Assembly (NCBI GenBank): GCA_030610995.1
Contig: JAUWQO010000014.1
Coordinates: 1 to 40,130, forward strand
Source: Desulfobacterales bacterium
GTDB lineage: Bacteria > Desulfobacterota > Desulfobacteria > Desulfobacterales > ETH-SRB1
Direction: 5' to 3'
Length of the DNA stretch: 40,130 nt
In this document: piece by piece, positions 2,589-26,680 of the stretch
Layout: each line of letters begins with the position of its first letter
How positions within the stretch are numbered: position 1 is the first letter of the stretch
Made by a program: the position numbers and the translations under genes
Notes under the pieces: model-generated
The model's database searches: none
What the model was told of the DNA's origin: nothing
What the model saw: only the letters and a program-made list of their open reading frames with translations

Positions 2589-2867
2589 ATGAATGTGGAA
2601 GTACTTTTCCCTGAGGAACTTCTGCTCGCCTTGAGAGAAGACCCAGAGAGCTTTCGTAAAAAGGTTCTTATCTTCACGTTGGGCAAATTATATGAGGCGG
2701 GTCGCATCTCTGGAGGATTAGGCGCCAAAGTTCTTGGTTGCGACCGCTGGGAGTTCTACCGGCTTCTTTCGGATAACGGATTTTCCGTACTCGACTACCC
2801 AGACGAAGAGCTGAATCAGGAAGGCGAGGTAGGCAGTGAATGGCACAGACGGATTCAAGACCAATGA
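2589..2867 (+). CDS. UPF0175-family antitoxin
   Basis: The 92-residue protein has the UPF0175 layout: an N-terminal strand (MNVEVLFPEELL), a helical segment (FRKKVLIFTLGKLYEAGRIS) and a DNA-binding-like segment GLGAKVLGCDRWEFYRLLSD near residues 44-63. Family members are usually the antitoxin partner of a PIN-type (DUF3368) toxin and probably bind their own promoter. GGGAGG lies 8-9 nt before the ATG. The stop overlaps the start of the next gene as ATGA at 2864-2867, which fits translational coupling of a toxin-antitoxin operon. Confidence 0.82.
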   Translation: MNVEVLFPEELLLALREDPESFRKKVLIFTLGKLYEAGRISGGLGAKVLGCDRWEFYRLLSDNGFSVLDYPDEELNQEGEVGSEWHRRIQDQ

Positions 2868-3352
2868 AGGCAGTAGTCAATAGCACCCCGCTAATTGCTC
2901 TTTCTATGCTAAACCATCTGTTCGTCTTGAAAGCCCTTTTTGATGAGATATTTGTTCCTTCATCTGTTTACGAAGAGGTTGTTCTGAAGGGTGGGAATCG
3001 TCCGGGTTCGCAAGAAATGGCCAAAGCAGATTGGATTATAGTTAAAGAACCAGCCGAGTCATTCCCGTTGCCTCCCGAACTTTTAGGGCTTGATACCGGC
3101 GAAATGGATGTGATCTTACTCGCTCGCGAGGTCAAGACGGATTGGGTTTTGATAGATGAAAAACTCGCTCGAAGGGTAGCTAAAGGGCTGGGATTGAAAG
3201 TAAAAGGCACGTTAGGTCTTCTCTTAATCGCGTATCGAACTGGCCTGGTCTCAAAGGAAGAAGCGAGAGCTGCTGCTCAGGAATTGGCTTCGGGTTTATT
3301 TCGTATCAGCGATCGCTTGTTCCAATGGTTCGAAGATCAATTACGGATATGA
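2864..3352 (+). CDS. DUF3368 PIN-domain toxin (probable ribonuclease)
   Basis: A PIN-superfamily protein of about 162 residues if it starts at MKAVVNSTPLIAL (2864). An upstream in-frame ATG at 2840 exists, but the 2864 start gives the ATGA overlap with the antitoxin and begins at the conserved strand. Acidic and Asn/Ser/Thr residues expected for metal binding are visible: VNSTPLIAL at the start, GLDTGEMDVILLA in the middle and DWVLIDEKLARRVAKGLGL afterwards, with KGTLGLLL completing the fold. PIN toxins cleave RNA with Mg2+; the paired UPF0175 protein should neutralise it. Catalytic residues look intact. Confidence 0.82.
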   Translation: MKAVVNSTPLIALSMLNHLFVLKALFDEIFVPSSVYEEVVLKGGNRPGSQEMAKADWIIVKEPAESFPLPPELLGLDTGEMDVILLAREVKTDWVLIDEKLARRVAKGLGLKVKGTLGLLLIAYRTGLVSKEEARAAAQELASGLFRISDRLFQWFEDQLRI

Positions 3353-3611
3353 TGACCTCTATCAGACCTTACTCGGAGTGTATGAACATCCAAAAAGGCC
3401 ATTTAACTGGGACGTAGACCATTTCACCGAGACACGATAGTGACAGCTTGCCAAGTTTAAATTCATGTTAATGACAGCATGGCATATTTAACCAAGGCAA
3501 AGCGAATTTAACCTATCACCTATCACCTATCAGCTATGAGCTATGAGCTATTCCCTCTGGGGCGGCTAATTAATATCCTGCTAATCCTGAAAATCCTGTC
3601 AAAAGAAAAAA
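3353..3611. other. Gap with repeats and a possible short coding relic
   Basis: Between the toxin and the composite repeat, one frame (about 3340-3440) reads LYQTLLGVYEHPKRPFNWD before a stop. It looks protein-like, but I cannot place it in a family. CTATCACCTATCAGCTATGAG-type heptamer-like tandem repeats follow (3511-3552), then a partial copy of the GGCTAATTAATATCCTG repeat (3563-3600). Confidence 0.45.
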
Positions 3612-3720
3612 GGAATTTTGCCCAAAGGGCATGATAGTTTTTTATCTGTCAAGTCGACAGATTAAAATGTCCGCGTTAGTCCGCGCCTGTCTGCGGCTAA
3701 TTAATATCCTTAAAATCCTG
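3612..3720 (+). repeat. Composite repeat: two hairpins plus TCTGCGGCTAATTAA tail
   Basis: Left to right: hairpin 1 TGCCC-AAA-GGGCA (3619-3631), hairpin 2 ATCTGTC-AAGTC-GACAGAT (3644-3662), then TGTCCGCGTTAGTCCGCG and GTCTGCGGCTAATTAATATC. An inverted copy with the same order lies at 40130-40026. A partial copy with hairpin 1 and only the left arm of hairpin 2 lies at 4669-4710. Confidence 0.8.
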
Positions 3721-3754
3721 CCTGCCCCCGTAGGTAGTTTACTATCGTACTGGG

Positions 3755-4036
3755 GTCTAATAAAAACAGAAACGGCGGGAACTAATGAACGAAAGTGCCC
3801 CCTTATGCATAATATTTTTCCTTCTCCATCATCTGTTTCCATTGCTGATCGACGGCTTTTAAATGGGCATGGTGGAGGTCTGCTTTGTCCTATGAGAAAC
3901 CTGAACATCCCTCACTTATTATTGAGACAGACAAACTCGGTTTGCAGCAATGTGTGGATGAGGTGATTGAGTTTTTGCTAAAACAGGGCTTGATTAGCAC
4001 AGAGTTCCAGCACAAATTTAGTGGATCTGGAAAAAT
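3755..4036 (+). pseudogene. Internally deleted adenylylsulfate kinase relic, copy 1
   Basis: One frame reads NIFPSPSSVSIADRRLLNGH, which resembles the N-terminus of APS kinase (CysC: ...DRxxLNGH just before the P-loop). A second frame then reads YEKPEHPSLIIETDKLGLQQ followed by CVDEVIEFLLKQGLI, which resembles the CysC C-terminus. The central part, including the Walker A motif, is missing and the two ends are out of frame. It cannot encode an active kinase. A second copy with the same deletion is at 4956-5286, so the deletion came before the duplication. The family assignment is from motif memory. Confidence 0.6.
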
Positions 4037-4172
4037 AAAATCGTAAACAAAATTTTGAGTTATGCAATGTTCTCTACCCGACTTCGATAATTGACAAATG
4101 CCTAGGCATAGGGTAAGTTATTAAAAATGAAAACATAAAATATTTATTCCGAATCCTCACGGAGGTAAAGAT

Positions 4173-4412
4173 ATGTACGAAAAACCGTTGTTTGTGCGTG
4201 CCGAGTGGGACGAAGTTGCACGTGTCTGGGTGGCCACCAGTGACGATGTGCCAGGTTTAGCCACTGAAGAGGATAATTTAGAGGGCCTAATCGAAAAGCT
4301 GAAAGTAATGATTCCGGAACTTCTTGATGTTAATGAAGCGGAAGGGGAACGGGAGGTGCCGTTCGAGCTCCTAACCCGCCGCTTTGAGATCGCGCAACGC
4401 ACGAGTTACTGA
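4173..4412 (+). CDS. DUF1902/HicB-like antitoxin
   Basis: A 79-residue protein with a partial RNase-H-like HicB fold: strands FVRAEWDEVARVWVATSDDVPGL, then TEEDNLEGLIEKLKVMIPEL as the helix. This matches DUF1902 proteins that pair with HicA toxins. A strong GGAGG precedes the ATG by 8 nt. The stop and the following start overlap (TGATG, 4410-4414), so the two proteins are probably translationally coupled. The antitoxin-first order is the reverse of the classical hicAB layout. The operon is bracketed by direct copies of a CysC relic. Confidence 0.8.
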   Translation: MYEKPLFVRAEWDEVARVWVATSDDVPGLATEEDNLEGLIEKLKVMIPELLDVNEAEGEREVPFELLTRRFEIAQRTSY

Positions 4413-4606
4413 TGCCCTCTTTCACACCGAAGTTAAAACAACTTTTGCGAGATGCGGAATGCTCTTTCGAACGTCAAGGCAAGGGGGATCACGAGATCTG
4501 GTTTAGCCCGATAACCGGCATCAGATTTGTGGTTGATAATTCAATTAAGTCCCGACATACGGCCAACGCTGTCCTCAAACAAGCAGGGTTACCTAAGAAG
4601 TTCTGA
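4412..4606 (+). CDS. hicA: HicA-family mRNA interferase toxin
   Basis: The 64-residue product has the compact double-stranded-RNA-binding fold of HicA: KLKQLLRDAECSFERQGKGD then HEIWFSP with the expected catalytic His (about residue 27), a central strand IRFVVDN, and a C-terminal helix HTANAVLKQAGLPKKF. Such toxins cleave mRNA when the antitoxin is lost. Size and motif order are complete, so it is probably active. A 12-bp perfect inverted repeat starts 2 nt after its stop. Confidence 0.85.
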   Translation: MPSFTPKLKQLLRDAECSFERQGKGDHEIWFSPITGIRFVVDNSIKSRHTANAVLKQAGLPKKF

Positions 4607-4957: not shown

Positions 4958-5286
4958 CTAATAAAAACAGAAACGGCGGGAACTAATGAACGAAAGTGCC
5001 CCCTTATGCATAATATTTTTCCTTCTCCATCATCTGTTTCCATTGCTGATCGACGGTTTTTAAATGGGCATGGCGGAGGCCTGCTTTGCCCTATGAAAAA
5101 CCTGAATATCCCTCACTTATTATTGAGACAGACAAACTCGGTTTGCAGCAATGTGTGGATGAGGTGATTGAACCGCAAAAACGAGCGCATTCCCCGCAGA
5201 TTGCTGCGGGGAGCTTCAATTTTTGCTAAAACAGGGTTTGATTAGCACAGAGTTCCAGAACAAATTTAGTGGATCTGGAAAAATTA
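4956..5286 (+). pseudogene. Internally deleted adenylylsulfate kinase relic, copy 2, with inserted hairpin
   Basis: Near-identical to 3755-4036, including the missing kinase core and the same frame break, but about 49 nt longer. The extra DNA (5172-5218) contains CCCCGCAG-ATTG-CTGCGGGG (5192-5211), an 8-bp REP-like hairpin, and interrupts the C-terminal segment after CVDEVIE. It is non-functional as a kinase. Confidence 0.6.
5172..5218 (+). repeat. REP-like palindrome insertion
   Basis: A 47-nt sequence absent from copy 1 of the relic, with a perfect 8-bp stem (5192-5199 with 5204-5211) and the tail GGGGAGCTTCAA. The clean presence/absence difference between two copies defines it as a discrete inserted unit. 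Confidence 0.7.
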
Positions 5287-8684: not shown

Positions 8685-9626
8685 ATGAATTCTCTAAAAC
8701 CTTTAATCAAACAGCTTCTATTTAAAGCCAGGTTCTACAAGCTAACCTCTCTACAGAATAGATTCTACATCATCCCCTATCACATGATAGTGGATAAAAC
8801 CAACGGGTTCTACCCGGAAACGTCAACCCGTGATTTTGAAAAGCAGATCGTCCATTTTGCCAAGAATTATAAAATCATATCCCTGAACGAAATCGTTGAA
8901 CGAATAAAAAACAAGAGATCCCTTCGCCGTTGCGTTGCTATTACCTTTGACGATGGATTTCGGGATAATTATGAAATTGCCTATCCGATTCTTAAAAAAT
9001 ATAACGTACCTGCTACTATTTTTTTGACAACCGGCTACATCAACAGCGGAACGGCTCCCTGGTTTATAAAATTGCGATACATTTTCATGCAAACAGCTAA
9101 AACTCATATCCACTTGTCTCACAACGGCGCTATCATCTCTCACCCCATGCATACAAAAGACGAAAAATTTGTAGCTTCTGATAGAGCAATGGTGCATCTG
9201 AAAAATTGTCCTGACAACGATAGGCTTCCACTTCTTGATAGATTGTGCGAACAGCTTGGAGTTAACGAATTCAATGGACTTAATAATTTAATGCTTACCT
9301 GGGATCAAATCAAGGAGATGGCAGAAAATGGAATTTCCTTTGGAACACACACCGTGAGCCATCCCATACTGAGCCGAACGTCTTTGGAAATGGCTGAAAG
9401 GGAAATTCGTGAATCGAAAAGAACGATTGAGGAGAAAATAGGAAAATCCGTTACCAGCTTTGCCTATCCGTTTGGCAAAAAATCACAATATAGCTCTGCA
9501 CTATTTCCGATCCTGCTGGATTTCGAATTCAAATGTGCGGTCACAACTGAAACAGAACCAAACACTCACAGGGTCAATCTCTTTGAACTCAACCGCCCTG
9601 TGCCCTGGGAATTTTCGTTACTGTAA
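8685..9626 (+). CDS. Polysaccharide deacetylase (CE4/NodB fold)
   Basis: A 313-residue CE4 enzyme. Motif 1 CVAITFDDGFRDNY lies near residue 83, the His pair GTHTVSHP near 219, and the later FAYPFGK motif near 257. The family removes N- or O-acetyl groups from glycans using a bound metal. No signal peptide is evident, although the basic N-terminus might be membrane-associated. It shares the strand and general direction of the acyltransferase genes that follow. Deacetylation could create the free amines that the FemAB-like enzymes farther along might use. Confidence 0.88.
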   Translation: MNSLKPLIKQLLFKARFYKLTSLQNRFYIIPYHMIVDKTNGFYPETSTRDFEKQIVHFAKNYKIISLNEIVERIKNKRSLRRCVAITFDDGFRDNYEIAYPILKKYNVPATIFLTTGYINSGTAPWFIKLRYIFMQTAKTHIHLSHNGAIISHPMHTKDEKFVASDRAMVHLKNCPDNDRLPLLDRLCEQLGVNEFNGLNNLMLTWDQIKEMAENGISFGTHTVSHPILSRTSLEMAEREIRESKRTIEEKIGKSVTSFAYPFGKKSQYSSALFPILLDFEFKCAVTTETEPNTHRVNLFELNRPVPWEFSLL

Positions 9627-9685
9627 CTTCAGATTCAGAAATTCCAAACATTGCCTTATATTAATGTTTTCCACTCATTGATTAT

Positions 9686-10792
9686 ATGTCTTTAGTCAAA
9701 ATCAACAATTTTGAGGTCGATAAACTACTTGTTAATCAACCCGATCTTACGAACCTTGCCATTTTGATAATCCTATTCATTATCGTCATTCTTTCATTAA
9801 AGAGAAGACGGACAACTTTTGGGGATGTTGCTCATTCCAACCAAGCCAAAGGCATAGCTATATTACTGATCATTGTCGGACACTTATGGGTCCATGTGTC
9901 GTCGCAAAAGCCTGCTTTGGTTTTTAGCGCAGAGGGTGTATCCTTGTTCCTTATTCTATCGGGATATGGTCTAACCAGGTCCCATCTTGTATCACCATAT
10001 TCCCTAAAGCAGTTTTTATCCAAGCGAATCAATAGGGTTTACTACCCATATTGGATTGCCACTGTGTTTATTATTGGCTTGGATTACCTGTTGTTAAATC
10101 GAACTTATTCGTCTTTTGATATACTGCTAACAACTGTGGGTGTAAACCTGAGTCAAACAACAAAACACCTTGATTACGCCAGGTGGTATATCACGTTTAT
10201 TCTTTTTTGGTATATCATCTTCTATCTGTCAACAAAATTACAGTCCAGGAACTATTCCATCTTATTGATATTTGCTATTTCATTGCTACTCTTTCCCCTT
10301 AACTATTATATCATGCACTTTGGATGGTACCAGATATACTCGTTCGCTACAGGATGTTTTATAGGATACAATTATGAATCCATACGTGATAGCTTACAAG
10401 CCCATCACGCGATATCCGTAATGGCTGCCGTTACAGGACTAATTATGGTAATACTTTGCAAACTCTACTTTTTTGGTATCTTAAAAGCTTCCTTGCCATA
10501 TTTAGTCTTTCTATTTATATATGAAGGCACAAGCATACTGTTCAGCCTGTCTGTCATAATCCTCATGTGGTACTGGGGACGGGTCAATTTAATAAGCCGA
10601 TTTTTATCCTTCACCGGAATTATTTCTTACGAATTGTTTCTTTTACACGGACTCCTGCTAATTAAATACAACTTTTTCATGAGCGGAGAAAATGTTATTT
10701 TCCCATTCTTCGTTTATCTGACAACAGTTTATATGCTTTCAATCGCCTTAAATAAATTTGCCAAAGCATTGCAACGGGTATCTATAAAATGA
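9686..10792 (+). CDS. Acyltransferase-3 family membrane protein
   Basis: A 368-residue integral membrane protein of about ten helices. The hallmark segment QAKGIAILLIIVGHLWVH carries the conserved His near residue 67, followed by EGVSLFLILSGYGLTRS and a basic loop (KRINRVYYPYW). This family moves acyl groups, usually acetyl, across the membrane to glycans. Its stop overlaps the start of an SGNH hydrolase-like gene (ATGA, 10789-10792), a pairing that fits a split O-acetylation machine. Confidence 0.87.
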   Translation: MSLVKINNFEVDKLLVNQPDLTNLAILIILFIIVILSLKRRRTTFGDVAHSNQAKGIAILLIIVGHLWVHVSSQKPALVFSAEGVSLFLILSGYGLTRSHLVSPYSLKQFLSKRINRVYYPYWIATVFIIGLDYLLLNRTYSSFDILLTTVGVNLSQTTKHLDYARWYITFILFWYIIFYLSTKLQSRNYSILLIFAISLLLFPLNYYIMHFGWYQIYSFATGCFIGYNYESIRDSLQAHHAISVMAAVTGLIMVILCKLYFFGILKASLPYLVFLFIYEGTSILFSLSVIILMWYWGRVNLISRFLSFTGIISYELFLLHGLLLIKYNFFMSGENVIFPFFVYLTTVYMLSIALNKFAKALQRVSIK

Positions 10793-11511
10793 AAGGTGTC
10801 ATGCGCAGGTGGGGCAATTCACTGCTGATATTGTTCCTCGCGGTGCTATTAGGTTTTAACACATATTATTTCTTTATTAGACGGGGAGTGGGTCTATCCT
10901 TCTATCTTAAGAAAGTCATTGAGAAACCTATAGATCCTATTTTGACTCATTCACTATACAAGGACTACAGGGCTGAATACGAATACCTTAATAGTGCTCA
11001 TCGAGGTTCTAAGTATATCGTTTTTCTGGGAGACAGCATTACGGCTCGCTTCAAAGTAAACGAATATTTCCCACACAAGAAACTATTAAACAGAGGAATC
11101 TTCTCTGATACAACCTGTGGTGTGCTCCAGCGGGTCGAAGCAAATTGCAATAACCTTGATGTCGCAAAATGCTTTATTTTGATTGGGTATAATGATTTGA
11201 AATACAGAACTGATGGGGAGATCTTAGAAAACTATGAAAAGATACTAAAAATCTTGAAGGCAGATGAGGTTTATGTGATGAGTTTGCTGCCTGTCAGTTC
11301 AAAATATCATGCCTTTGCAATAAAGATACCGCAACTGAATCAGCGTATCAAGGAAATAGCATTCAAGCACGGATGTACATACCTGGACATCTTCAGTAAA
11401 TTTGTTGGTTCTGATGGGTATATGCGAAAGGAATTTAGTACAGATGGAGTTCATCCTAACAAAGATGGCTACAGAGAACTTAGGAAAGTGCTTAAACCCT
11501 GGATCGAATGA
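10789..11511 (+). CDS. Membrane-anchored SGNH/GDSL-family esterase or acetyltransferase
   Basis: A 240-residue protein with one N-terminal membrane anchor (about residues 10-28) and an SGNH domain outside the membrane. Block I is IVFLGDSITARF near residue 80, block III is LIGYNDLK near 133, and block V is STDGVHPNKDGY near 220 with the catalytic Asp and His. SGNH domains coupled to acyltransferase-3 proteins transfer acetyl to polysaccharide. Translational overlap with the preceding gene supports that partnership. Confidence 0.85.
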   Translation: MKGVMRRWGNSLLILFLAVLLGFNTYYFFIRRGVGLSFYLKKVIEKPIDPILTHSLYKDYRAEYEYLNSAHRGSKYIVFLGDSITARFKVNEYFPHKKLLNRGIFSDTTCGVLQRVEANCNNLDVAKCFILIGYNDLKYRTDGEILENYEKILKILKADEVYVMSLLPVSSKYHAFAIKIPQLNQRIKEIAFKHGCTYLDIFSKFVGSDGYMRKEFSTDGVHPNKDGYRELRKVLKPWIE

Positions 11512-11588
11512 CAACAAACTGAGAACACCTGTGCAAGGTTGTATTATGCGGCGGATCAAAGAACAGAACAGGGAAGGATTGGTGGAAC

Positions 11589-11823
11589 ATGAAGCGTAAA
11601 AAGATCGAACAGACCCATTTCGACCAGCAGGTACAGGGGAAAAGCAAGGAAGCAACATTTTATGGCACCCCTTTTGTGCAAAAATGTACTATACAACCTG
11701 CATACCTATTCCATTTCCCAAATCGGCAATCCCCACGATAAAAGAATACTTTTTTACGGTTGCGGGGCAAGTTTTAGGACTGCCAGAGAGTTAGCGGAAC
11801 AACGAGAAAGAAACAAGGACTGA
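11589..11823 (+). pseudogene. Broken class I methyltransferase fragment
   Basis: The frame from the ATG at 11589 reads MKRKKIEQTHFDQQVQGKS and stops at about 11752. The continuation is in a second frame, where IGNPHDKRILFYGCGASFRT ARELAEQ resembles a methyltransferase motif I, and this ends at the TGA at 11821. The rest of the enzyme is absent. It is a frameshifted, truncated relic just before the rhodanese gene. The two frames join around 11725. Confidence 0.6.
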
Positions 11824-11837
11824 GGAGGTATGAGGAT

Positions 11838-12347
11838 ATGAGTACTAAGCATATGATAGTCATTATCGGCTTGATAGTGGTTCTTTTTTCATCTCTATGC
11901 TTGGCTGAAACAGCAGAAGAACAGAGAAGAAGACTGGCCCTGAAGTATGTTGACATTCCGAAAATAACTGCAAGAAAAGCCTATGCTCTATTTCAGCAAG
12001 GAAAATTGCTTATCGTAGATACCCACAGAGCAGGCCGTTTTAAAAGTCAACACTGTTCGGGTGCTATCAACATACCTGTAGATATTGTTGATAGAGTTAA
12101 GCTTACAGTCAAGAAAGATACTCCTATGGCTCTTTATTGAAGGTGACCTGGTCCAGGTGCCTCCGGTCCGGTGGCAAGAGAGCTAAGAAGGAAAGGTTTT
12201 AAGAAGATTTTTATCATTTCAGAAGGTGTCGATAAAGCTGGGGCTACAAGTGCTATGCAGAAAGCCGGGTTTATGTGGCAGTATGGCAACAAATTAGTAA
12301 AGTTTGACTCACAAGGGAAAGTAGTCCAAAAGATTCCCCTTCAATGA
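11838..12347 (+). CDS. Secreted rhodanese-like protein, probable selenoprotein with UxU motif (two in-frame TGA codons)
   Basis: Read conventionally the gene stops at TGA 12138-12140 after 100 codons. In the same frame, TGA codons 101 and 103 are followed by 66 open codons to a third TGA at 12345-12347, giving 169 residues. The protein has a signal peptide (about 1-23, ending SLCLAE), the rhodanese segments KITARKAYALFQQGKLLIVD and SGAINIPVDIVD, then the active-site strand MALY-U-R-U-PGPGASG and VARELRRKGFKKIFIISEGV. Rhodaneses I recall with a Y-C-x-C-P-N-E-A-S loop place Cys exactly where both TGAs fall. GGAGG lies about 10 nt before the ATG. A SECIS-like hairpin lies 11 nt after the second TGA. 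A decaying gene is the alternative; a broken methyltransferase lies next door. Confidence 0.62.
12158..12176 (+). promoter_or_regulatory. Candidate bacterial SECIS element
   Basis: TGCCTCCGGTCCGGTGGCA can form TGCC/GGCA (4 bp), a T-T mismatch, CCG/CGG (3 bp) and an apical GTC, so GGTC sits at the tip. The stem starts 11 nt after the second TGA, and 18 nt separate that TGA from GGTC. From memory, the E. coli fdhF element has the same spacing, a mid-stem U and an apical GGUC. An additional ACCTG-GTC-CAGGT hairpin (12146-12158) lies directly before it. Confidence 0.5.
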
Positions 12348-12393
12348 TTTCATGACAGTATTCATACGTTATTCTGAAAGATTAATCTAAGCA

Positions 12394-13935
12394 ATGAAAG
12401 CCAATATACTAAAAAACAGTTTTTTAAATAGCACCGGTTTTGTTTTCACGGCTGCGGTTACTTTTTTCATTACTCCGTTTGTCGTACACAGATTGGGTAA
12501 CGAACTCTACGGCATCTGGGTGTTGGTGATTGGTCTGACAGGATATCTCGGCCTATTGGATTTCGGTATGAGAACAGCCATAGTAAAATATGTATCTGAA
12601 TATCATGCCAAAGGGGATTATAGCGAACTGAATGGAATGAGCAGCACTGCCTTGACATTGTTTGCAACTATTGGCCTGATTTGCTGGTTAGTAGCTGTTC
12701 TGTTTTCCTTCTTCATAGAAGATGTTTTCAATGTCGGTACAGTAATGCAGATTAATTTTTTTCTATTATTGTTTATTATTGGCGCCGATGTATTTCTAAC
12801 TTTCAGCTTTATGATATTTCAAGGAAGCATAGCCGGATTTCAACGCTATGACATTTCGGTGCGAAATGGGCTCATTGCTTTTTCAGTGAGAAGTGCTTTG
12901 ATATTATTGCTATTGGGACTCGGTTACGGCATTATTGCACTCAGTATTATTGTGCTGGTTTCAAATCTGCTGGGATATCTCCTGAATTTCAAGTCCTGTG
13001 GATCTATTTGCCCTCAACTGTATTATTCGATCGGCAAGATTAGCAGGAAACACCTACACACGCTATGGCAATATTCCTGGAAGAGCTTTGTAACCAATAT
13101 ATCAGATAGAATAATATATTACTCCGATATTATTATTATAGGCATTTTTCTAGACCCTGCACATATTACTTTCTATGCGATAGCATCATCGCTCATAATT
13201 TATACGAGGCAGTTGATTCTATCTATTTCTGGAGTATTTGTACCAGCTATCAGCTCTGCCCATGCAAATGACGCTATCGCAGAAATCCATCAAATAGTTA
13301 TCGAAGGATCAAAGCTAATATTATTCGTGCTTATTCCGATATTCTGTGTTTTGGCTATAATGGGGCAGGAATTTATTCGATTGTGGATGGGGCCTGGCTA
13401 TGAAAAGACCTATCAGGTTTTGTTTATTCTATTGACTTCACAGTTTTTTGTCCTTTCACAATATGGAGTAACTCTTGTGCTATATGGTTTAGCAAAGCAT
13501 GAAGTACTTGCTCACATTAATATGGTCATAGCTGTTCTGAATATTATTTTGTCAGTGATTTTGGTTCAATACTGGGGAATCATCGGCGTTGCCTTAGGTT
13601 CTGCAATACCATTGGCTCTTCTAAGAATACTTTTAATACCAAAACGTGTGTTTAAACTGATAAATATGAAATTTGGTTTTTTTTATAAAGAGATTATACT
13701 ACGAGTTTCTATCGTATTTTTGTTCTACATTGTGTTATTGCTATGTCTGAAATATACAATTGACGCCAGTACATGGTTTGGATTCATCTCAATTTCAGGT
13801 ATATCTTTAATAGTATATCTTGTGATTTTCTATCTTGTTGGGCTGAAAACGCATGAACGATCAAAAATCAATGTTTTTGTCCTTTCACAACTCAAGAAAA
13901 TGCAATCCCTATACAAAGGAGGCACATACAGGTGA
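12394..13935 (+). CDS. Wzx-type polysaccharide flippase
   Basis: A 513-residue, strongly hydrophobic protein with about 12-14 membrane helices. The N-terminal region FFITPFVVHRLGNELYGIWV and GLLDFGMRTAIVKYVSEYHA is typical of the MATE-like oligosaccharide flippases that carry lipid-linked repeat units across the inner membrane. A C-terminal polysaccharide-biosynthesis region is also present. Its stop overlaps the next start (13932-13935). It opens the long export and decoration unit. Confidence 0.87.
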   Translation: MKANILKNSFLNSTGFVFTAAVTFFITPFVVHRLGNELYGIWVLVIGLTGYLGLLDFGMRTAIVKYVSEYHAKGDYSELNGMSSTALTLFATIGLICWLVAVLFSFFIEDVFNVGTVMQINFFLLLFIIGADVFLTFSFMIFQGSIAGFQRYDISVRNGLIAFSVRSALILLLLGLGYGIIALSIIVLVSNLLGYLLNFKSCGSICPQLYYSIGKISRKHLHTLWQYSWKSFVTNISDRIIYYSDIIIIGIFLDPAHITFYAIASSLIIYTRQLILSISGVFVPAISSAHANDAIAEIHQIVIEGSKLILFVLIPIFCVLAIMGQEFIRLWMGPGYEKTYQVLFILLTSQFFVLSQYGVTLVLYGLAKHEVLAHINMVIAVLNIILSVILVQYWGIIGVALGSAIPLALLRILLIPKRVFKLINMKFGFFYKEIILRVSIVFLFYIVLLLCLKYTIDASTWFGFISISGISLIVYLVIFYLVGLKTHERSKINVFVLSQLKKMQSLYKGGTYR

Positions 13936-15002
13936 TGCGAACGAGAGTCATTGACGTCTATGACGATGCAGTGTCCATAAAAAGAAAGTGGGATTATTTG
14001 GTTGAACATGGGAAATTGGATGTATCTGCATCATATCTGTGGACTATTGCTCTTTGGGAAAGCCATCTCAAAAAGAAGAATATGAATATCATATTAGTGG
14101 AAAATGGGAATGATATATCGGGCATCTTTCCTGTTTTCTTGAAAAAAAAGACTATGAGGAAGTTGCCAATCACAACTGTTTGTCCTGTTGCTTCTTTGTT
14201 CTGTTTACACAATGACTTGGTTGTCCATGAGCCGACACATGATATACTGTCTGCATTTTTTGAAGGACTAAAAAGTATCTCGGGCTTCAGAAAATGGAAC
14301 GTTATGGAAATCCCATCTGTTGTGGTCGGCGGCATTGCTGATCTAATGCTGAAGTCTTTTTTGTCTGCAAACGGATATAAATACATTGTTTCAAAAGGGC
14401 CTGTATCTCCATTCATAAGAACCAAGAATCTTTCTTGGGAGGAGTATCTAAAATCTTTAAAGAAAAAAGCCCGGGGCAACTTCAAGCGCAAACAAAATAT
14501 CATAAGAAGAGAAGGCGGAACAATTATAAAACAAATATCAGAGTATGATGAAATCCTACACATTATGACAACGGTCGAAAGTAGAAGTTGGAAACACCAA
14601 AGGGGTTCCGCAATAGTTGATAAAGACCATCAAATGACTTTCTATAAATTACTAATAAAAAATCTTGGTTCTCATTTCATATTCTTTGTTTTATTTTTTA
14701 ACGATAAACCGATATGTTACAGCATGGGGCTGCTACATCGCAAGAGGTATTACTCCCTGAAAACAAGCTATGATGATAATTACAAAAAGGTTTCGCCGGG
14801 GATCGTCTTGAGGTTGCATTTGCTCCAATATTGTTTTGAGAATGACTTTTGCGAATTTGATTTTTGCGGAGAAGAGGAGCAATGGAAGAAGGAATTTACC
14901 ATAGATCACAGAGAACACAAAAATTATATAATTTTCAATAAGGACATATATTCAAGATTTATCTATTTAATAAGCCAATTTATAAGAAAAAACCGAGATT
15001 AA
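13932..15002 (+). CDS. FemAB/CelD-like GNAT acyltransferase 1
   Basis: A 356-residue protein with the double-GNAT architecture of the CelD/BcsL (Acetyltransf_6) family. Diagnostic pieces are WEEYLKSLKKKARGNFKRKQ in the middle, RSWKHQRGSAIVDKDHQMTFY, and the C-terminal FCEFDFCGEEEQWKKEF. Related enzymes acylate amino or hydroxyl groups, including amino sugars and peptidoglycan side chains. It is one of four such genes in this locus. The ATGA overlap with the flippase gene points to co-translation. Confidence 0.8.
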   Translation: MMRTRVIDVYDDAVSIKRKWDYLVEHGKLDVSASYLWTIALWESHLKKKNMNIILVENGNDISGIFPVFLKKKTMRKLPITTVCPVASLFCLHNDLVVHEPTHDILSAFFEGLKSISGFRKWNVMEIPSVVVGGIADLMLKSFLSANGYKYIVSKGPVSPFIRTKNLSWEEYLKSLKKKARGNFKRKQNIIRREGGTIIKQISEYDEILHIMTTVESRSWKHQRGSAIVDKDHQMTFYKLLIKNLGSHFIFFVLFFNDKPICYSMGLLHRKRYYSLKTSYDDNYKKVSPGIVLRLHLLQYCFENDFCEFDFCGEEEQWKKEFTIDHREHKNYIIFNKDIYSRFIYLISQFIRKNRD

Positions 15003-15007
15003 TAAAC

Positions 15008-16165
15008 ATGAATATTTCGATGCAACCAAGACTAAATTTGGCGCTCTTCCGGTCGAATCGTAATGGCCAGATATTTTGTAAGAACCTCCAACCAATATAC
15101 CAGGGAAGATACGCCTTTTATCAAGCTTTAGCATTATCGGGTTTAGAAAAAAACGATAGGGTCTTGCTTCCGTCGTACCACTGTTTGTCAATGGTTGAGC
15201 CTGTATTGCGCTATGGTTGCAAAGTCAATTTTTATAAGATTCGAGGAAACTTGCAAACAACTGTGAATGATATACAAGACGCTATTACTACTGATACAAA
15301 AGCTGTGTTCTTGGTTCATTATTTTGGTTTATTTCAAAAAAAAATCGAACAGATAAAGGATTACTTGCTATCCAAGGATATATTTCTAATTGAGGACTGT
15401 GCACACGTCATCCCTCTGCGTCATCAAAAGGCAGGCACGATTGGTGATATTAGCATTTTTTCGCCGAGAAAATACCTCCCCCTCATTGATGGCGCATTCC
15501 TGCGCATAAACAATCCGAAGATCACAAAATCTCCTATCCTAAAAAACCTACCTTTGCTGCGAGAATTAAAAGTCGCCAAGAATACATTTGAACAACACCT
15601 CAATGCCTCTAAATATGAAAGGTTAAAACATTACTATTTCATGATTGACAATAATATTAACAGGAGCAGAAATATTCTCAAGCCGGCACCTATTCAAAAC
15701 CATACACGAAGACTGGTTTCCACTATCCCTATTGAGTTTGATATGAATCTCATAAACAGTCGTTGTTCGTGTTTAGCGCGTTATATTCTGAGCAGAGCCA
15801 ACTTTGAAGCCATATACGAAAAGAGGAAACGAGCTTTCAAATATCTCTACGACGAGTTATACATCGGTCATGGCCTGAAGCCGCCTGCTTTTTTGAATTC
15901 AGGCGGATCGGAATGTGTGTTTGGCTTCCCAATGCTGGCCAAAAACAAGCGCGATGTAATTTTCGAATTGAAAAAGAGAAACATCCAGACATTCACTTTC
16001 GGCGAGGAGATTCATAAGCATGTCGTACGGCATGGTAATTTGGTTGATGAACGGCTTTCCTCTCAACTCTTTTTCATGCCTATCCATCAGGATCTGGATT
16101 ACGATGAATTAAGATATATCTCTCGAAACTTAAAGGAGATTCTACGAATTGGACAGATTCACTAA
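15008..16165 (+). CDS. DegT/DnrJ/EryC1/StrS-type aminotransferase
   Basis: A 385-residue fold-type I PLP protein. LALSGLEKNDRVLLPSYHC is the early substrate loop, FLIEDCAHVIPLR near residue 127 carries the Asp that holds the PLP ring nitrogen, and ISIFSPRKYLPLIDGAFL near 150 holds the expected Lys in an atypical setting (families usually continue with a Gly-rich GGxxT segment). It probably makes an amino sugar from a keto-sugar nucleotide, supplying amines for the neighbouring FemAB-like acyltransferases. The atypical pocket leaves room for a non-catalytic role. Confidence 0.75.
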   Translation: MNISMQPRLNLALFRSNRNGQIFCKNLQPIYQGRYAFYQALALSGLEKNDRVLLPSYHCLSMVEPVLRYGCKVNFYKIRGNLQTTVNDIQDAITTDTKAVFLVHYFGLFQKKIEQIKDYLLSKDIFLIEDCAHVIPLRHQKAGTIGDISIFSPRKYLPLIDGAFLRINNPKITKSPILKNLPLLRELKVAKNTFEQHLNASKYERLKHYYFMIDNNINRSRNILKPAPIQNHTRRLVSTIPIEFDMNLINSRCSCLARYILSRANFEAIYEKRKRAFKYLYDELYIGHGLKPPAFLNSGGSECVFGFPMLAKNKRDVIFELKKRNIQTFTFGEEIHKHVVRHGNLVDERLSSQLFFMPIHQDLDYDELRYISRNLKEILRIGQIH

Positions 16166-16169
16166 TTCA

Positions 16170-17303
16170 ATGAAAATTACAATAGTAAACGATCTCACGG
16201 GATTTGACCGACTTCACGATAGTTGGAACCGATTGCTTGAGAGTTCAGATTTTGACTCTGTCTTTATGACGCACGAGTGGTTTTCATCATTCATAAGAGC
16301 CTTTAACCTAGAGAAACAAATGTCGATTGTATTAGTTTACGACTCTTGCGGTCTTGTGGGGATCCTACCGCTATACCGAGAGTATGTCAAATACGGTTTT
16401 CTAAGGTGTCTTGTCCTGAAATCGATAACAAATGTCCACACGCCCAAGTATAGCTTCATTTTTAGAAAGGGGGCCGGTGTCCTGCTTCCGAAGGTGTTGG
16501 CGCTTTTACAGCGGATGGTGCAATGGGATATGATTCAGGTTGACTACATAAGCCAAGACTTGTTCATCTTGAAGCATCCCTCATTAATGATCCAGCAACG
16601 ATTCCACACAGCAATTGTTCCCATTATGAAGAGTCCTCGTATTTTGCTCGGGGGCGATTGGAATACGTATTACAAGGAGTGTTTTTCGAAGTCTCTCAGA
16701 CAGAATATTGAAAAGTCAATCAGAAAGACTCAACGTTTTTATGAACTGTCCTGTGAAGTCATAGAAGGTGCCAAATTAACGAAAACTGATCTGGAAGAGG
16801 CATTCATTATTGAAGATAGAGGATGGAAGGGACAAAATGGCAGCTCCATAATAAAGAATGAGAGCTTCAGAAAATTCTACGAGCAGTTAGCTTTTCAAAC
16901 CAGTCATAATGGATGGTTTGCATTGAGATTTCTAAAGCTTGGCAGCAGAAGAGTCGCTTTTGATTACTGTTTGAAATACAAGACCTCTTATAATCTTTTG
17001 AAGACTGGATATGATGAAAAACTAAGCAAATACTCTCCCGGACATATTCTTAGAAAAAACTCAATCATGGACGCATTCGAATCTGGATACGCTATTTGCG
17101 ACCTATTGGGAGCATCAGACAATTACAAGTTAAAAATGGCAAACGGTTTGGATTGTCTTTATAGCATGTATATCTTTCATAATGGTGTAATCTCAAGAAT
17201 GATGAAATTTATACTTTTTGATGCCAAAGAAATTGCCGGAAAAATCGGAATCAAGGATTCCTTGAAGGAAATTTATTACAGACTCAGAAAACCGGTAGAA
17301 TGA
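16170..17303 (+). CDS. FemAB/CelD-like GNAT acyltransferase 2
   Basis: A 377-residue member of the CelD/FemAB-like group, starting at MKITIVNDLTGFDRLHDSW. An ATG at 16149 would overlap the preceding gene, and the 16170 start, just after the previous stop, gives a cleaner domain. Typical pieces are VFMTHEWFSSFIRAF near the N-terminus, CFSKSLRQNIEKSIRKTQRF mid-protein, and YAICDLLGASDNYKLKMANG near the end. Sequence layout resembles the next gene, suggesting duplication followed by specialisation. Confidence 0.8.
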   Translation: MKITIVNDLTGFDRLHDSWNRLLESSDFDSVFMTHEWFSSFIRAFNLEKQMSIVLVYDSCGLVGILPLYREYVKYGFLRCLVLKSITNVHTPKYSFIFRKGAGVLLPKVLALLQRMVQWDMIQVDYISQDLFILKHPSLMIQQRFHTAIVPIMKSPRILLGGDWNTYYKECFSKSLRQNIEKSIRKTQRFYELSCEVIEGAKLTKTDLEEAFIIEDRGWKGQNGSSIIKNESFRKFYEQLAFQTSHNGWFALRFLKLGSRRVAFDYCLKYKTSYNLLKTGYDEKLSKYSPGHILRKNSIMDAFESGYAICDLLGASDNYKLKMANGLDCLYSMYIFHNGVISRMMKFILFDAKEIAGKIGIKDSLKEIYYRLRKPVE

Positions 17304-17312
17304 GGCGAATAA

Positions 17313-18464
17313 GTGGTTATAGAAATCAGACAATATTCAGAACTTCTTAGCTTGCGTGATGAATGGGAACGACTGATCTTAAATTCTTGCAACCCGAGTA
17401 TCACTCAAAGTTGGGAATGGATGAAAACCTGGTGGGATGTATATGGTGAAGAGAGGAAGTTATTAGTTTTGTGTGGGTATAAGGACGGTAAATTAGTCGG
17501 AATAGCGCCACTATCAGTGGGAAGGAAACGAACGTATTACTTCAACTATCTTAAATACAAAACAATTTGGTTTTTGGGAAGCGGTAAAACGAAGGCCAGA
17601 GGTGTTGTGTCCGATTATCTTAACTTTATTGTTGAAAAAGGCAACGAAAAGCGCTGCATAAAGGGTTTTTTGGAATATTTGAGCAATCACATTGGCTGGG
17701 ATGAAATAATTCTTGAGAACATTTCCACTGAGTCAGCGCCACCGGTACTTTTGCAAAGGTTTGCTCAAGAGTATGGCCTGAAACTCAGTATTGTTAGTAG
17801 AACACCAAGCATTTTGATTAAGCTACCGGATTCATGGGATGAATATATAAAGTCAATATCCAGTAGTTTGCGTTATAAGATAAAACGAGGCAGGAATGAA
17901 TTCGGCAAGCTAAAAGGCACATATCATCTGGTGAAGAAAGAAAGTGAGTTGCCTAAGACATTTGCTGATTTGGGAAGACTGCATCAACATAGGTGGAATA
18001 GCAAAGGAAAGGCCGGGGCATTTTCAAGCCATGAATGGAAAACATTTCATCAAAGACTCATCCCCATGCTGTTTGACAAGGGATGGTTAAAATTGAGTTT
18101 TCTAAAACTAAACGGCCAAACAGTTGCTGTGAATTATAACTTCGCTTTCAATAAACGAATCCACTTTTTCCAGTCAGGCTTGATACCTCATAAAAACAAG
18201 CATGTTCGCCTCGGTCTGCTGCTGCATAGCTATTGCATTGAAGAAGCCATTAATGAAGGGTATGAGGAATATGACTTCTTACAAACAGGTGCATCTGGAC
18301 CAGGTTATAAAGGAATGTGGGGTAACTGTTCAAGAGACCTACTGACGATAAGAATAGCCAGAAAATCGGCTAAAGAAAAATTATATAGTTTGCTTAACCA
18401 TGGACTAATGTGCGGAAGAAATCTCAAGGCCAGGATTCAGATAAATACTCAAGGAGAGATATAG
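17313..18464 (+). CDS. FemAB/CelD-like GNAT acyltransferase 3
   Basis: A 383-residue paralogue using a GTG start at 17313, with a GAGG about 8 nt before it. Signature segments are SITQSWEWMKTWWDVYGEER near residue 30, YIKSISSSLRYKIKRGRNEF mid-protein, LHQHRWNSKGKAGAFSS, and the C-terminal YEEYDFLQTGASGPGYKGMW. It is close in layout to the two preceding acyltransferases, but each is distinct enough to suggest different donors or acceptors. Confidence 0.8.
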   Translation: MVIEIRQYSELLSLRDEWERLILNSCNPSITQSWEWMKTWWDVYGEERKLLVLCGYKDGKLVGIAPLSVGRKRTYYFNYLKYKTIWFLGSGKTKARGVVSDYLNFIVEKGNEKRCIKGFLEYLSNHIGWDEIILENISTESAPPVLLQRFAQEYGLKLSIVSRTPSILIKLPDSWDEYIKSISSSLRYKIKRGRNEFGKLKGTYHLVKKESELPKTFADLGRLHQHRWNSKGKAGAFSSHEWKTFHQRLIPMLFDKGWLKLSFLKLNGQTVAVNYNFAFNKRIHFFQSGLIPHKNKHVRLGLLLHSYCIEEAINEGYEEYDFLQTGASGPGYKGMWGNCSRDLLTIRIARKSAKEKLYSLLNHGLMCGRNLKARIQINTQGEI

Positions 18465-18565: not shown

Positions 18566-20452
18566 ATGAGCGCTATTGCAGGAATTTTTCAGGAAGAATC
18601 AGAAAAAAGCATCAGTTCTAAAAAAATTGATCGAATGCTCGCAATAATGAAACACAGAGGAGCTGCCTGCGCTACAGAGACTTCTCATGGTAAGTGTGCG
18701 TTTGGCGTTTGCTCCGACAATTTGAGCGATCTGTCAGCGATATTTGCCTTTAACCGTGCTGAAGATATCTGGGGTATGTTAATTGGTGACATTTTTGATA
18801 CAAAAATCAATGGGCCATCAAAAAATACCACACAAACTGACTGCGAATTGGTACTCTGCCTATATAGGACTTATGGTGCCAAATTTGTTCATAGGATTGA
18901 CGGCTCGTATGCCATCGCCATATACGATGGCCAGTTAAATGAGTTGCTGCTAATCCGAGACCGAGTTGGATCCAAACCTCTCTTTTATACCAAAGCAGAG
19001 AATACCCTGGTATTTGCTTCAGAGATCAAAGCCATTCTTGCCAGTGGTTTTTATGAAAAAAGCATCAATCTGCGGGCATTGAACTATTTCCTTTCCTCTG
19101 GGTATGTTCCCAACCCGCATACAATGTTTGATTCCATCAAGCAAGTTAAACCCGGGCATATACTCATCTGTAAGGACGGTAATATTGTTGAAAAGCCGTA
19201 TTGGAAATTTGTTTATAGACAGGATGAACAGAATAACCATGAGGACTATTGTAAGGAGAAATTTCTTGATGTTTTTGAAACCGCAGTTTCAAGATGCTTG
19301 AAAAAACATCCCGATGCCGGAGCATTTCTTAGCGGAGGACTTGACACGAGCGGAGTCGTTGCGGTCATGCACAAGTTGAAGCGGTCTCCCTTCAAGGTTT
19401 TTACCGCCGGCTTTGAAGAAGAACAGTACAGTGAGATTGCCGAAGCAAAGATGCTGGCTGATCATTTTGGCTTAGAACATCACACCATTACAGTAAAATT
19501 CGACAACGACTTTCCATCATTACTTGAAAAGCTCGTATGGCACCATGATACACCCTTTGCGGATACTTCGGCCATCCCATCTTATTATGCAGCCAAGCTC
19601 GCCAAAGAATATGTTGATGTGGTTTTAACAGGTGACTTTCCGGATCAACTGATTGGCGGGTCTGGCCACCATGCTATGGCGCTTTACAGAGAACTTCATG
19701 ATCCGGCATGGAAAAGAATGCTCAGAAATAGCAAGTTGAATCAGCTTATAGATAGGTTGCCCTGGAGTGCAGGAGAAAATACATTATCTGATAAAATAAA
19801 AAGGTTTCTTTATCGAGAGACTTTTTCTCTGGAAGAGCAACGCATCATTGCCAATATGCCCATCCCCCATCTTCTAAAAAGGTGTCTTTACAGTCCTGAC
19901 ATGCTGGAAGTGAACAAGAAATACGATCCGCTCAGTATTGCACAAGCTCTGTACGCTGAAGTACCTGATGCAAACTTGCTTGACAAGCTCCTTTATTTCG
20001 ATATCCATTCTTACGCGCCGGACGACCTTATGGTTAAGGTGGATCGAATGACACAGGCTCACGGCTTGACCGCAATCAGCCCGTTTCATGATCTTGAGTT
20101 CGTAGAATTTATGGCAACTGTGCCCCCTCATCTTAAGATAAGGGGCTCTGAACGAAAATACATCATGAGAGAAGCACTCAGGCCCCTGCTTCCCGAGCAG
20201 ACTTTGAATAAGAAAAAACAGGGGTTTGCCATGCCGATAGGCGAGTGGCTGATTAACAATTTATCAGATTATGTGCGTGACGTCTTGCTCGATTCCAGGA
20301 CGCTGAATCGGGGATATTTCAATAAGAAGTTCATGAGAAAAATGGTGGAGAACTTTCTTGATAGAAAAACTGATTATGCATCAGGGTCTGAGGCAGCCAT
20401 TATTTCATTGATAACGCTGGAGCTGTGGCACAGGATATTTATAGATAATTAA
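18566..20452 (+). CDS. Asparagine-synthase-like amidotransferase lacking the glutaminase Cys
   Basis: A 628-residue protein with the two AsnB domains: N-terminal glutamine amidotransferase (about 1-200) and C-terminal ATP-PPase synthetase (about 230-600). Active AsnB starts MCGI with Cys2 as nucleophile, but here the start is MSAIAGIF, so Cys is replaced by Ser. The NGEIYN substrate loop is also changed (LIGDIFDT). The synthetase P-loop is kept as FLSGGLDTSG near residue 255, but the usual SGxGGDE stretch reads LTGDFPDQLIGG near 354. It may use ammonia or another amine, or form an amide in the way beta-lactam-synthetase relatives do. The canonical paralogue is at 24792-26675. Confidence 0.78.
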   Translation: MSAIAGIFQEESEKSISSKKIDRMLAIMKHRGAACATETSHGKCAFGVCSDNLSDLSAIFAFNRAEDIWGMLIGDIFDTKINGPSKNTTQTDCELVLCLYRTYGAKFVHRIDGSYAIAIYDGQLNELLLIRDRVGSKPLFYTKAENTLVFASEIKAILASGFYEKSINLRALNYFLSSGYVPNPHTMFDSIKQVKPGHILICKDGNIVEKPYWKFVYRQDEQNNHEDYCKEKFLDVFETAVSRCLKKHPDAGAFLSGGLDTSGVVAVMHKLKRSPFKVFTAGFEEEQYSEIAEAKMLADHFGLEHHTITVKFDNDFPSLLEKLVWHHDTPFADTSAIPSYYAAKLAKEYVDVVLTGDFPDQLIGGSGHHAMALYRELHDPAWKRMLRNSKLNQLIDRLPWSAGENTLSDKIKRFLYRETFSLEEQRIIANMPIPHLLKRCLYSPDMLEVNKKYDPLSIAQALYAEVPDANLLDKLLYFDIHSYAPDDLMVKVDRMTQAHGLTAISPFHDLEFVEFMATVPPHLKIRGSERKYIMREALRPLLPEQTLNKKKQGFAMPIGEWLINNLSDYVRDVLLDSRTLNRGYFNKKFMRKMVENFLDRKTDYASGSEAAIISLITLELWHRIFIDN

Positions 20453-20468
20453 ACGCACCGCCAAGGGA
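20453..20468 (-). repeat. CGCCAAGG repeat before a GxxExxY relic
   Basis: ACGCACCGCCAAGGGA is the inverted form of the CTTGGCGG repeat seen at 2191 and 8651. It directly precedes the relic at 20485. Confidence 0.5.
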
Positions 20469-20484
20469 AAAGAAAGATAAAAAT

Positions 20485-20559
20485 ATGGCAGAAAATGAAA
20501 TAGCAAAAATTGTTGTTGATTCCGCAATCAAGGTTCACAAGCTCCTCGTGTCTGGATAA
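20485..20559 (+). pseudogene. N-terminal remnant of a GxxExxY protein
   Basis: ATG then AENEIAKIVVDSAIKVHKLL and a TAA after 24 codons. The sequence resembles the start of GxxExxY proteins (…ENEIGKIVVDAAIKVHKALGPGL…), but everything after the first helix, including the defining motif, is missing. The break falls just before the next gene at 20569. Confidence 0.6.
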
Positions 20560-20568
20560 TTAATAGTA

Positions 20569-22299
20569 ATGAAATTTGAAATTAAGATAGTAACAGATGA
20601 GAAAGCACTCCAGTTGATAGACAATGAAGAGTTTATTTCTGAATGGAAGGACTTATCTTGCGCAGACAGTAAGGTAACCGTTCTTCAAGAACCAGCTTTT
20701 GTTGTTACATGGTACAAACAGTATTATGACAAATACAGACCGGTACTATGTCTTGGTTACAATGATGCAAGCCGAGTTATTGGCCTTATGCCACTAGCCC
20801 TTTCATTAAAGAACGGCTATTTAACTCATGCTGGTGATCATCAAGCAGAGTATCATGGTTGGATTGTTACTAAAGATATCGATCATGATTTTCCCATCAA
20901 GGCATTAATTGCGCTTAGGAATCATTTTCATTTAAGAACATGGCAATGGCGTTGGATACCACCCAGAGCTCAAACTAGTTGGTTAAATTCACAGGCTTTA
21001 ACTAAGGAGAAGATTTTTGTTAAATGCAGGCAAGAAAGGTCTCCAATTTGGAACTTGAGTGATGAGAATAAATTCAAAAAGTTAATGAAAAACAAAGCGA
21101 TCAAGAATAACATGAATAGATACAAAAATAAGGGAGATTTCTATATTGAACGGATAAAAACGAAAGAAAGGATAGAAAGCTTAATTGATACAATTGCAAT
21201 GCAATGTGATTTTAGACAAGAAGCTATCCATATAGTTGCTCCATTTAAAAATGACCCTAATAAAAAAGGCTTCTATATTGAAAGAATGAACTATCCTAAC
21301 GATAACTACTTTACAGTTCTATGGTCTAATAATGACCCAATAGCTTTCCATCTTGGGACATGTGACAAGGACACGGTATGCTTAGGGCTTTCATGTTTTG
21401 ATCCTCTTGAAAGCAATAAATCTCCAGGAACCTTACTGTTGTTAAAATTAGCACGCTTACTTATGGATGAGGGATATAGGTATATTGATTTGACACCTGG
21501 TGGAGATGCATACAAACAACGATTTTCTAATGCAGAGCAGAACCTTATTACGCCGTGTTTTTATTTTTCCAGGCTAACAAAATTAAAGTCAGATCTACGA
21601 GAGGAGATAATCAGAATCGCAAAGAGATGTTTACTTGCAATAGGTTTTACACCTACTTTGGTTAGAAATAAATTAGCCAGTATAAGCGAATTATTTTATA
21701 AATTGCATAGGTTATCTTTATCCAAACTTGTAAGGAGGATCATTTCATTAATATATGAGAAAAGGATTTTCATATATTACAAATATACATATGATAAGTT
21801 CGGTTCAAACGAGATCCCAAACAGCAGCGATATTAGCATCCAAAAATATTCTGATCTCATGAATTATACTGGCTCTAATCCTTGGCTTTCCAGGTCTAAC
21901 CTTCTGTCAGAATCCTCACGCCGTTTTTCTACTGGAGAAGTTCTATATTCTGTACTTAAAAATGGAATGTTGGCCCATTATGGATGGATGGTAAAGGGTG
22001 GTCGAACTCATAAATTTACCGAAGTTGACATGGAATTTAAGTCTCCCAAAGGTTCCCTAGTTTTATATGATTTTTACACGGAACCAAAATTTCGGCGAAA
22101 AGGCTTGTATCAAACAAATCTTAAGAAGATGTTATATGATGGCTTTAGGGCTGGTGCGAATGAAGTTTATATTGGTGCTGCGTATCGAAATAATGCCTCA
22201 AGGGCAGCGATAGAAAAAACTGGATTCAAAATCTTTAAGACTTTTGTAAAAACAAGGTCTTTATGGATAGTTAAAAAAAAAGAGATCGATAATGAGTAG
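20569..22299 (+). CDS. CelD-like acyltransferase fused to a second GNAT domain
   Basis: A 576-residue protein. The first ~340 residues are a CelD/FemAB-like domain (WKDLSCADSKVTVLQEPAFV early, MKNKAIKNNMNRYKNKGDFY mid-domain, YIDLTPGGDAYKQRF at its end). The last ~180 residues form a separate GNAT acetyltransferase whose acetyl-CoA loop reads EPKFRRKGLYQTNLKKML, followed by NNASRAAIEKTGFKIF. Such a fusion could modify two groups on the same glycan or in two steps. The stop overlaps the next start by 8 nt. Confidence 0.78.
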   Translation: MKFEIKIVTDEKALQLIDNEEFISEWKDLSCADSKVTVLQEPAFVVTWYKQYYDKYRPVLCLGYNDASRVIGLMPLALSLKNGYLTHAGDHQAEYHGWIVTKDIDHDFPIKALIALRNHFHLRTWQWRWIPPRAQTSWLNSQALTKEKIFVKCRQERSPIWNLSDENKFKKLMKNKAIKNNMNRYKNKGDFYIERIKTKERIESLIDTIAMQCDFRQEAIHIVAPFKNDPNKKGFYIERMNYPNDNYFTVLWSNNDPIAFHLGTCDKDTVCLGLSCFDPLESNKSPGTLLLLKLARLLMDEGYRYIDLTPGGDAYKQRFSNAEQNLITPCFYFSRLTKLKSDLREEIIRIAKRCLLAIGFTPTLVRNKLASISELFYKLHRLSLSKLVRRIISLIYEKRIFIYYKYTYDKFGSNEIPNSSDISIQKYSDLMNYTGSNPWLSRSNLLSESSRRFSTGEVLYSVLKNGMLAHYGWMVKGGRTHKFTEVDMEFKSPKGSLVLYDFYTEPKFRRKGLYQTNLKKMLYDGFRAGANEVYIGAAYRNNASRAAIEKTGFKIFKTFVKTRSLWIVKKKEIDNE

Positions 22300-23458: not shown

Positions 23459-23558
23459 GGCTCATCCACAAAACAAGGTTTGAAAATACACCCGTCAATT
23501 TAACATTTTTTACTAAAGCTTTGATTTGAAAATAGTTCATTCTTGTATCGAGGCTATT

Positions 23559-24701: not shown

Positions 24702-24715
24702 GCAAAAAACTCTCA

Positions 24716-24791
24716 ATTGTCAGTTATCCATAGCCAGTGGTCCATTGTTTGTAACCCTGAACCCAATACCCAGAACTCAGTACCCAACATT
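24716..24791 (+). repeat. Degenerate short tandem repeat before the second asparagine synthase
   Basis: TCAGTTATCCATAGCCAGTG and CCCAATACCCAGAACTCAGT-type units fill the gap before the true start at 24792. They extend an open frame upstream (to 24717) that is not likely to be translated as protein. Confidence 0.5.
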
Positions 24792-26675: not shown

Positions 26676-26680
26676 TCGAT

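Follow-up and report, generated by a model that had tools for sequence, protein, structure and literature searches.

Two in-frame UGA codons in the active-site loop of a predicted exported rhodanese selenoprotein from a Desulfobacterales bacterium

A rhodanese gene whose reading frame is crossed by two TGA codons, six bases apart, raises the question of whether the gene is damaged or encodes a protein with two selenocysteine (Sec) residues. The gene lies at positions 11838-12347 on the forward strand of the window, the whole stretch of 40,130 nucleotides of Desulfobacterales DNA that was analysed, and it comprises 169 codons followed by a TGA stop. An earlier note on this DNA had proposed that the gene encodes a selenoprotein with a Sec-x-Sec (UxU) loop. 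The observation holds, and the proposal is largely borne out. We put the probability at about 0.8 that this is a functional gene for an exported, single-domain rhodanese selenoprotein with Sec at both UGAs, codons 101 and 103, and that the protein was derived from rhodaneses with a Cys-x-Sec (CxU) loop.

The reading frame and the predicted active-site loop

When TGA is translated as U, the frame at 11838-12347 reads MSTKHMIV...ALYURUPGPGASGPVARELRRKGFKKIFII...KIPLQ(U). No internal stops occur other than the TGAs at codon 101 (12138-12140) and codon 103 (12144-12146), and a third TGA, codon 170, closes the frame. The frame is therefore open to codon 169 apart from these two codons, as the earlier note had claimed. 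The strong GGAGG ribosome-binding site that it described is present at 11824-11828 on the same strand, nine bases before the ATG. The N-terminal segment at 11838-11907 (+) resembles a signal peptide (MSTKHMIVIIGLIVVLFSSLCLA), and the structural model has a helix at residues 3-21. Because standard gene callers halt UxU rhodanese genes at codon 101, such genes are likely to be mis-annotated or missed.

The read-through product matches the Pfam rhodanese family (PF00581) with 34.3 bits, against a gathering cut-off of 22.2, and the match covers residues 44-133 (11967-12236, +), extending across both TGAs. The codon usage of the 66 codons from 104 to 169 gives a score of 0.154, compared with a coding mean of 0.119 for the other genes of the window and a wrong-frame mean of 0.038. 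This score is attained by just 0.7% of wrong-frame windows. Both results support the view that the continuation is a good C-terminal half of a rhodanese and is coding-like. An AlphaFold model, for which the window protein was aligned with loci taken from named genomes, reaches a mean pLDDT of 86. Foldseek gives a probability of 1.00 for its match to many solved rhodaneses, GlpE and PspE among them. The rhodanese domain at residues 44-133 is thus found by both sequence and model.

In the model, a strand at residues 97-100 leads into a loop at 101-108 and a helix at 109-118. The predicted active-site loop is Y-U-R-U-P (Y-Sec-Arg-Sec-Pro). Codon 101 aligns in sequence with the Cys of the PspE YCNAG loop, which we take to be the catalytic residue, and would place a Sec at the position of the catalytic nucleophile. 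Codon 103 aligns with the Sec position of the LYCxU (CxU) rhodaneses. Every homologue of this loop has either Cys or Sec in both of the aligned columns, and the alignment bears out the proposal that the TGAs stand at both Cys positions of the loop. Arithmetic that assumes random placement gives a chance of ~7e-5 that two nonsense mutations fall on exactly codons 101 and 103 of 169. With no other damage to the frame, the argument that such a pair is unlikely to arise by chance holds.

In-frame TGAs would also be tolerated in the window gene if TGA had been generally reassigned to a sense codon such as Trp or Cys rather than Sec. This is extremely improbable, since the window gene itself terminates at the TGA of codon 170 and the in-frame TGA of the family occurs only on Cys-type active-site columns. 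In addition, the order uses tRNA-Sec, and selA, selB and selD are present.

Relatives and the recurrence of the UxU loop

Relatives were sought first in 58 related genomes and afterwards in about 390 genomes from across the order, and these searches yielded many exported rhodaneses whose loop reads Y-[C/U]-x-[C/U]. One set of 70 distinct rhodaneses contains 47 with a CxU loop, 17 with UxU and 6 with CxC. Besides the window gene, the order has 16 loci with UxU rhodaneses, spread over 15 other genomes and 8 families (G017, G234, G268, G380, G076, G131, G278, G312, G351, G125, G108, G385 with two loci, G375, G142 and G392). A scan of named genomes re-found several of these loci, for example in Desulfobacteraceae bacterium UBA2156 and Desulfobacterales bacterium SF_100_bin76, and added two, in Deltaproteobacteria ALJrbin.12 and Syntrophaceae L.E.D.62. 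A search of a plasmid collection returned ordinary distant rhodaneses only.

Parsimony on the tree of the 70 sequences accounts for UxU with 8 changes, of which at least 4 are forced by well-supported branches, although the number of origins is rough because the alignment columns are few and many forks of the tree are open. On this tree, CxU gave rise to UxU more than once. The earlier note had suggested looking for related genomes with TGC/TGT or TGA at these codons. Genomes with TGA at both exist, and UxU recurs independently in the order.

The window protein itself clusters (support 98/91) with three CxU proteins (L093 in G091, L094 in G088, and L051), and within this immediate clade UxU is confined to the window genome. 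Since these nearest relatives are CxU, a single step from TGC or TGT to TGA suffices. The clade looks like a case of one recent change, from Cys to Sec, at codon 101 alone.

The CxU ancestry of the window clade also bears on whether the protein contains a single Sec, with UGA 103 alone decoded efficiently and codon 101 being a sequencing or assembly error or inefficiently read. The hairpin described below is compatible with this, since its spacing from UGA 103 is the usual one, with the loop centre at +23 as in E. coli fdhF. However, UxU occurs in 18 other loci of independent assemblies, including four loci of family f22 and three of family f54, and the first-position TGA is therefore not an isolated error. 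We consider a single-Sec protein to be very unlikely.

Substitution rates were compared downstream of the UGAs. Over the 40 codons 3' of both UGAs in the all-UxU clades, dN/dS is 0.13-0.33 in six of seven pairs. Judged by these rates, the all-UxU clades are constrained by purifying selection past both UGAs. No orthologue near enough for dN/dS on the window gene itself was found. A pair consisting of one UxU and one CxU gene (L113/L150) gave a dN/dS of 1.26 with a dS of 0.08 and was set aside, as the divergence is too small.

Two further groups of rhodaneses were noted. Four proteins (L035, L042, L056 and L059) represent another class of Sec rhodaneses, in which the catalytic position is occupied by Sec (YUAxGGRSR); this is probably the known UxxG form. 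A third group (L157, L162-L168, L171, L173 and L174) consists of small CxU rhodaneses in which the second strand is followed by VCAY where DVR is usual, and many of them lack an obvious signal peptide.

The SECIS hairpin and the decoding machinery

The CxU and UxU rhodaneses have a hairpin at a fixed spot, 19-33 bases past the start of the second UGA. Of 46 Sec rhodaneses, 45 form a perfect 5-bp stem, compared with 1.4 expected from synonymous codon shuffling, and GGUCU is the commonest loop in the first set of Sec rhodaneses. When the set was enlarged to 90 sequences, all five stem pairs were present in 80, the second loop base was G in 88, and two of the stem pairs vary on both sides (G-C to C-G and U-A to C-G). 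The position of the hairpin is identical in UxU and CxU genes, and there is no space for a hairpin between the two UGAs. From this we infer that one SECIS serves both, and a single SECIS thus apparently decodes two UGAs 6 nt apart in UxU rhodaneses.

In the window gene, a SECIS-like hairpin with the predicted fold UGCC-U-CCG[GUC]CGG-U-GGCA (-8.7 kcal/mol) is situated at 12158-12176 (+). Its GGUC is at +21 to +24 from UGA 103, the interval at which the hairpin of E. coli fdhF has GGUC after its own UGA. The window hairpin is 3 nt off the family position, at which two of the five pairs form. Of 300 synonymous randomisations, 107 reach the energy of -8.7 kcal/mol, which by itself is not significant, so a SECIS in the window copy is plausible rather than proven, and the hairpin was dropped as independent proof. 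A second small hairpin, ACCUG[GUC]CAGGU, is predicted at 12146-12158 (+) and overlaps the last base of UGA 103. An Rfam search of the window gave nothing at gathering score.

A CxC rhodanese that falls among CxU proteins (L078 in G194, ~435-510) keeps a perfect SECIS-type hairpin (GTGCCGGTCTGGCAC) after its TGC codon. This hairpin looks like a fossil SECIS left by a Sec-to-Cys reversion.

The search for the Sec machinery that the earlier note had called for was successful for the protein genes and unsuccessful for the tRNA. The window's own assembly consists of 3.02 Mb in 200 contigs (93.5% complete, 4.6% estimated contamination). It contains selB and selA, with scores of 369.5 and 613.3 bits respectively, together with a selD whose GSGUxSK motif includes an in-frame TGA (Sec). 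A tRNA-Sec was not found in this 93.5%-complete assembly, either with the covariance model or by a DNA search with a same-genus tRNA-Sec. In the relatives search, 23 of 29 genomes (own genome counted) have a tRNA-Sec above the cut-off, including same-genus genomes.

In one genome of the same genus (G001), tRNA-Sec adjoins recD2, which is followed by tRNA-Sec and a peptidase gene. The recD2 of the window genome (G000:C134:8703-10876; L138/L142) is 91% identical to the G001 copy. An adenylate-cyclase-like gene stands 3' of it, where G001 has tRNA-Sec and the peptidase gene, and the next gene of G001 was not found in the window genome. The segment with tRNA-Sec may have moved into an assembly gap, or it may have been lost; the former is favoured because the Sec-containing selD is intact.

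The absence of tRNA-Sec from the assembly and the broken gene order at its usual site would be expected if the window gene were a pseudogene, that is, a former CxU gene that recently acquired a nonsense codon at position 101, or whose tRNA-Sec was lost, and that now yields only a 100-residue fragment. The CxU loops of the close relatives and the displaced window hairpin fit such a history as well. A random nonsense mutation, however, falls on codon 101 in one of 169 cases, and the frame is otherwise undamaged. The genes selA, selB and Sec-selD are intact, and UxU recurs in other genomes, where it is kept by selection. A pseudogene is accordingly an unlikely explanation.

In the preferred reading, that of a double-Sec rhodanese, SelB and Sec-tRNA would read both UGAs as Sec via one hairpin 3' of the second UGA, presumably also in the window copy, and the protein would be exported.

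Genomic setting and comparison with known systems

The window rhodanese gene lies inside a long exopolysaccharide cluster. Pfam assigns the genes at 8685-18464 (+) to a polysaccharide deacetylase, an acyltransferase, a GDSL lipase, a flippase (12394-13935, +), GNAT-type acetyltransferases and an aminotransferase. Homologues of exosortase (XrtA)/PEP-CTERM-type amidotransferase, glycosyltransferase and ligase are found at 18566-29286. The CxU relatives of the window clade have neighbours of a similar kind, named by eye from their sequences: glycosyltransferases, a flippase, a polysaccharide deacetylase and ligase-like proteins in G091, an amidotransferase in G088, and glycosyltransferases on contig C73. 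UxU rhodaneses beyond the window clade have different neighbours, for example NrfD and outer-membrane transport proteins (L185). At one locus (L053 in G017, 2403-3980, reverse strand), the UxU rhodanese is fused to a multihaem c-type cytochrome in a single frame of 500+ residues with many CxxCH motifs.

The first 19.9 kb of the window have their best longer DNA matches in genomes of its own family, with the exception of one mobile segment. This segment contains a toxin-antitoxin pair of a small HicB-like protein (DUF1902) and HicA at 4131-4606, and its 95-97% identity to genomes of other families indicates that it was recently mobile. Near-duplicate short open stretches (...IIETDKLGLQQCVDEVIE...) at 3849-4046 and 5050-5229 lie on either side of the segment. 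They resemble remnants of a duplicated gene end, and the part at 3805-4076 also matches same-genus genomes.

The CxU rhodanese on C73 was considered as a paralogue within the window's own genome. It was dropped as proof, because G000:C73 (L051) and G357:C158 (L155) share 6.3 kb at 99.98% identity in metagenome-assembled genomes of different families, which indicates contamination in one of the bins. The shared piece bears the CxU rhodanese in a polysaccharide locus.

The window protein would be an extracytoplasmic redox or sulfur-transfer enzyme of the exopolysaccharide locus. It probably originated from a CxU rhodanese selenoprotein, among the relatives of NF041203, through a change from Cys to Sec at the catalytic residue. 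The two Sec side chains probably pair as a selenolate/diselenide or per-selenosulfide centre on the rhodanese scaffold. Outside the cytoplasm, such a pair could accept sulfane sulfur, or could reduce or transfer thiols, polysulfides or selenium compounds. More generally, the UxU rhodaneses would be a recurrent class in which one SECIS serves two UGAs six bases apart, with the window copy recruited to exopolysaccharide loci, and we judge the balance to lie somewhat in favour of this broader picture.

If true, the tight Sec-x-Sec pair would add a new redox centre to the sulfurtransferase fold, and the genes would represent natural double UGA decoding by one SECIS. At least 19 UxU loci with several origins would show that selection has repeatedly favoured two neighbouring selenols in the rhodanese active site. 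SECIS decoding is otherwise thought to be spacing-sensitive, and the UxU genes would be a natural system to ask how one bacterial SECIS decodes UGAs at different distances.

In reviews of the prokaryotic selenoproteome, rhodanese form 3 (NF041203, rhodanese_LYCAU) is a CxU protein with one Sec (PMC9312934, PMC13188914). No UxU or two-Sec UxU rhodanese was found in the openly available literature searched, including these reviews, in line with the remark in the earlier note that none had been described. Like form 3, the window protein is predicted to be an exported single rhodanese domain with Sec at the second position of a Y-[CU]-x-U loop, and both come from the same bacterial order; the hairpin that follows the UGA in form 3 has a plausible counterpart in the window gene. 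The window protein differs in that it scores 40.1 bits with NF041203, below the curated cut-off of 115, and has UGA at both loop positions (URU) in place of the Cys-first/Sec-second pattern. Further differences are the displaced hairpin, an additional strand at the C-terminus and the surrounding exopolysaccharide genes. Its score below the cut-off, together with the lack of UxU in the reviews, suggests that it is a divergent relative, with two Sec residues, of the CxU rhodanese selenoproteins. Those UxU rhodaneses that do score as NF041203 (for example L175 in UBA2156 and L114 in G131) resemble it in the two UGAs six bases apart, the loop and the fold, but they are nearer to the LYCAU core, with scores above the cut-off and the hairpin at the family position, and some are lipoprotein-like.

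The E. coli single-domain rhodaneses GlpE and PspE are alike in fold and in the position of the catalytic loop, but they have Cys where the window protein would have Sec, and they lack a further chalcogen residue two positions later. A redox protein known to contain two Sec residues is the rhodanese/DsbD fusion TsoB (NF045694, UxxxxU; PMC13188914), in which the spacing and architecture are different; its profile gives a weak match of 12.3 bits to the window protein. Another redox protein with two Sec residues is the Prx-like UxxU protein (PMC13188914), and a diselenide has a precedent in SelL (PMC2398784); these two likewise differ from the window protein in spacing and architecture. The extHIJKL cluster of Geobacter, which includes an outer-membrane rhodanese lipoprotein and is tied to selenite reduction via ExtI (PMC5877670, PMC6148476), offers a loose parallel of extracytoplasmic rhodaneses near electron-transfer proteins.
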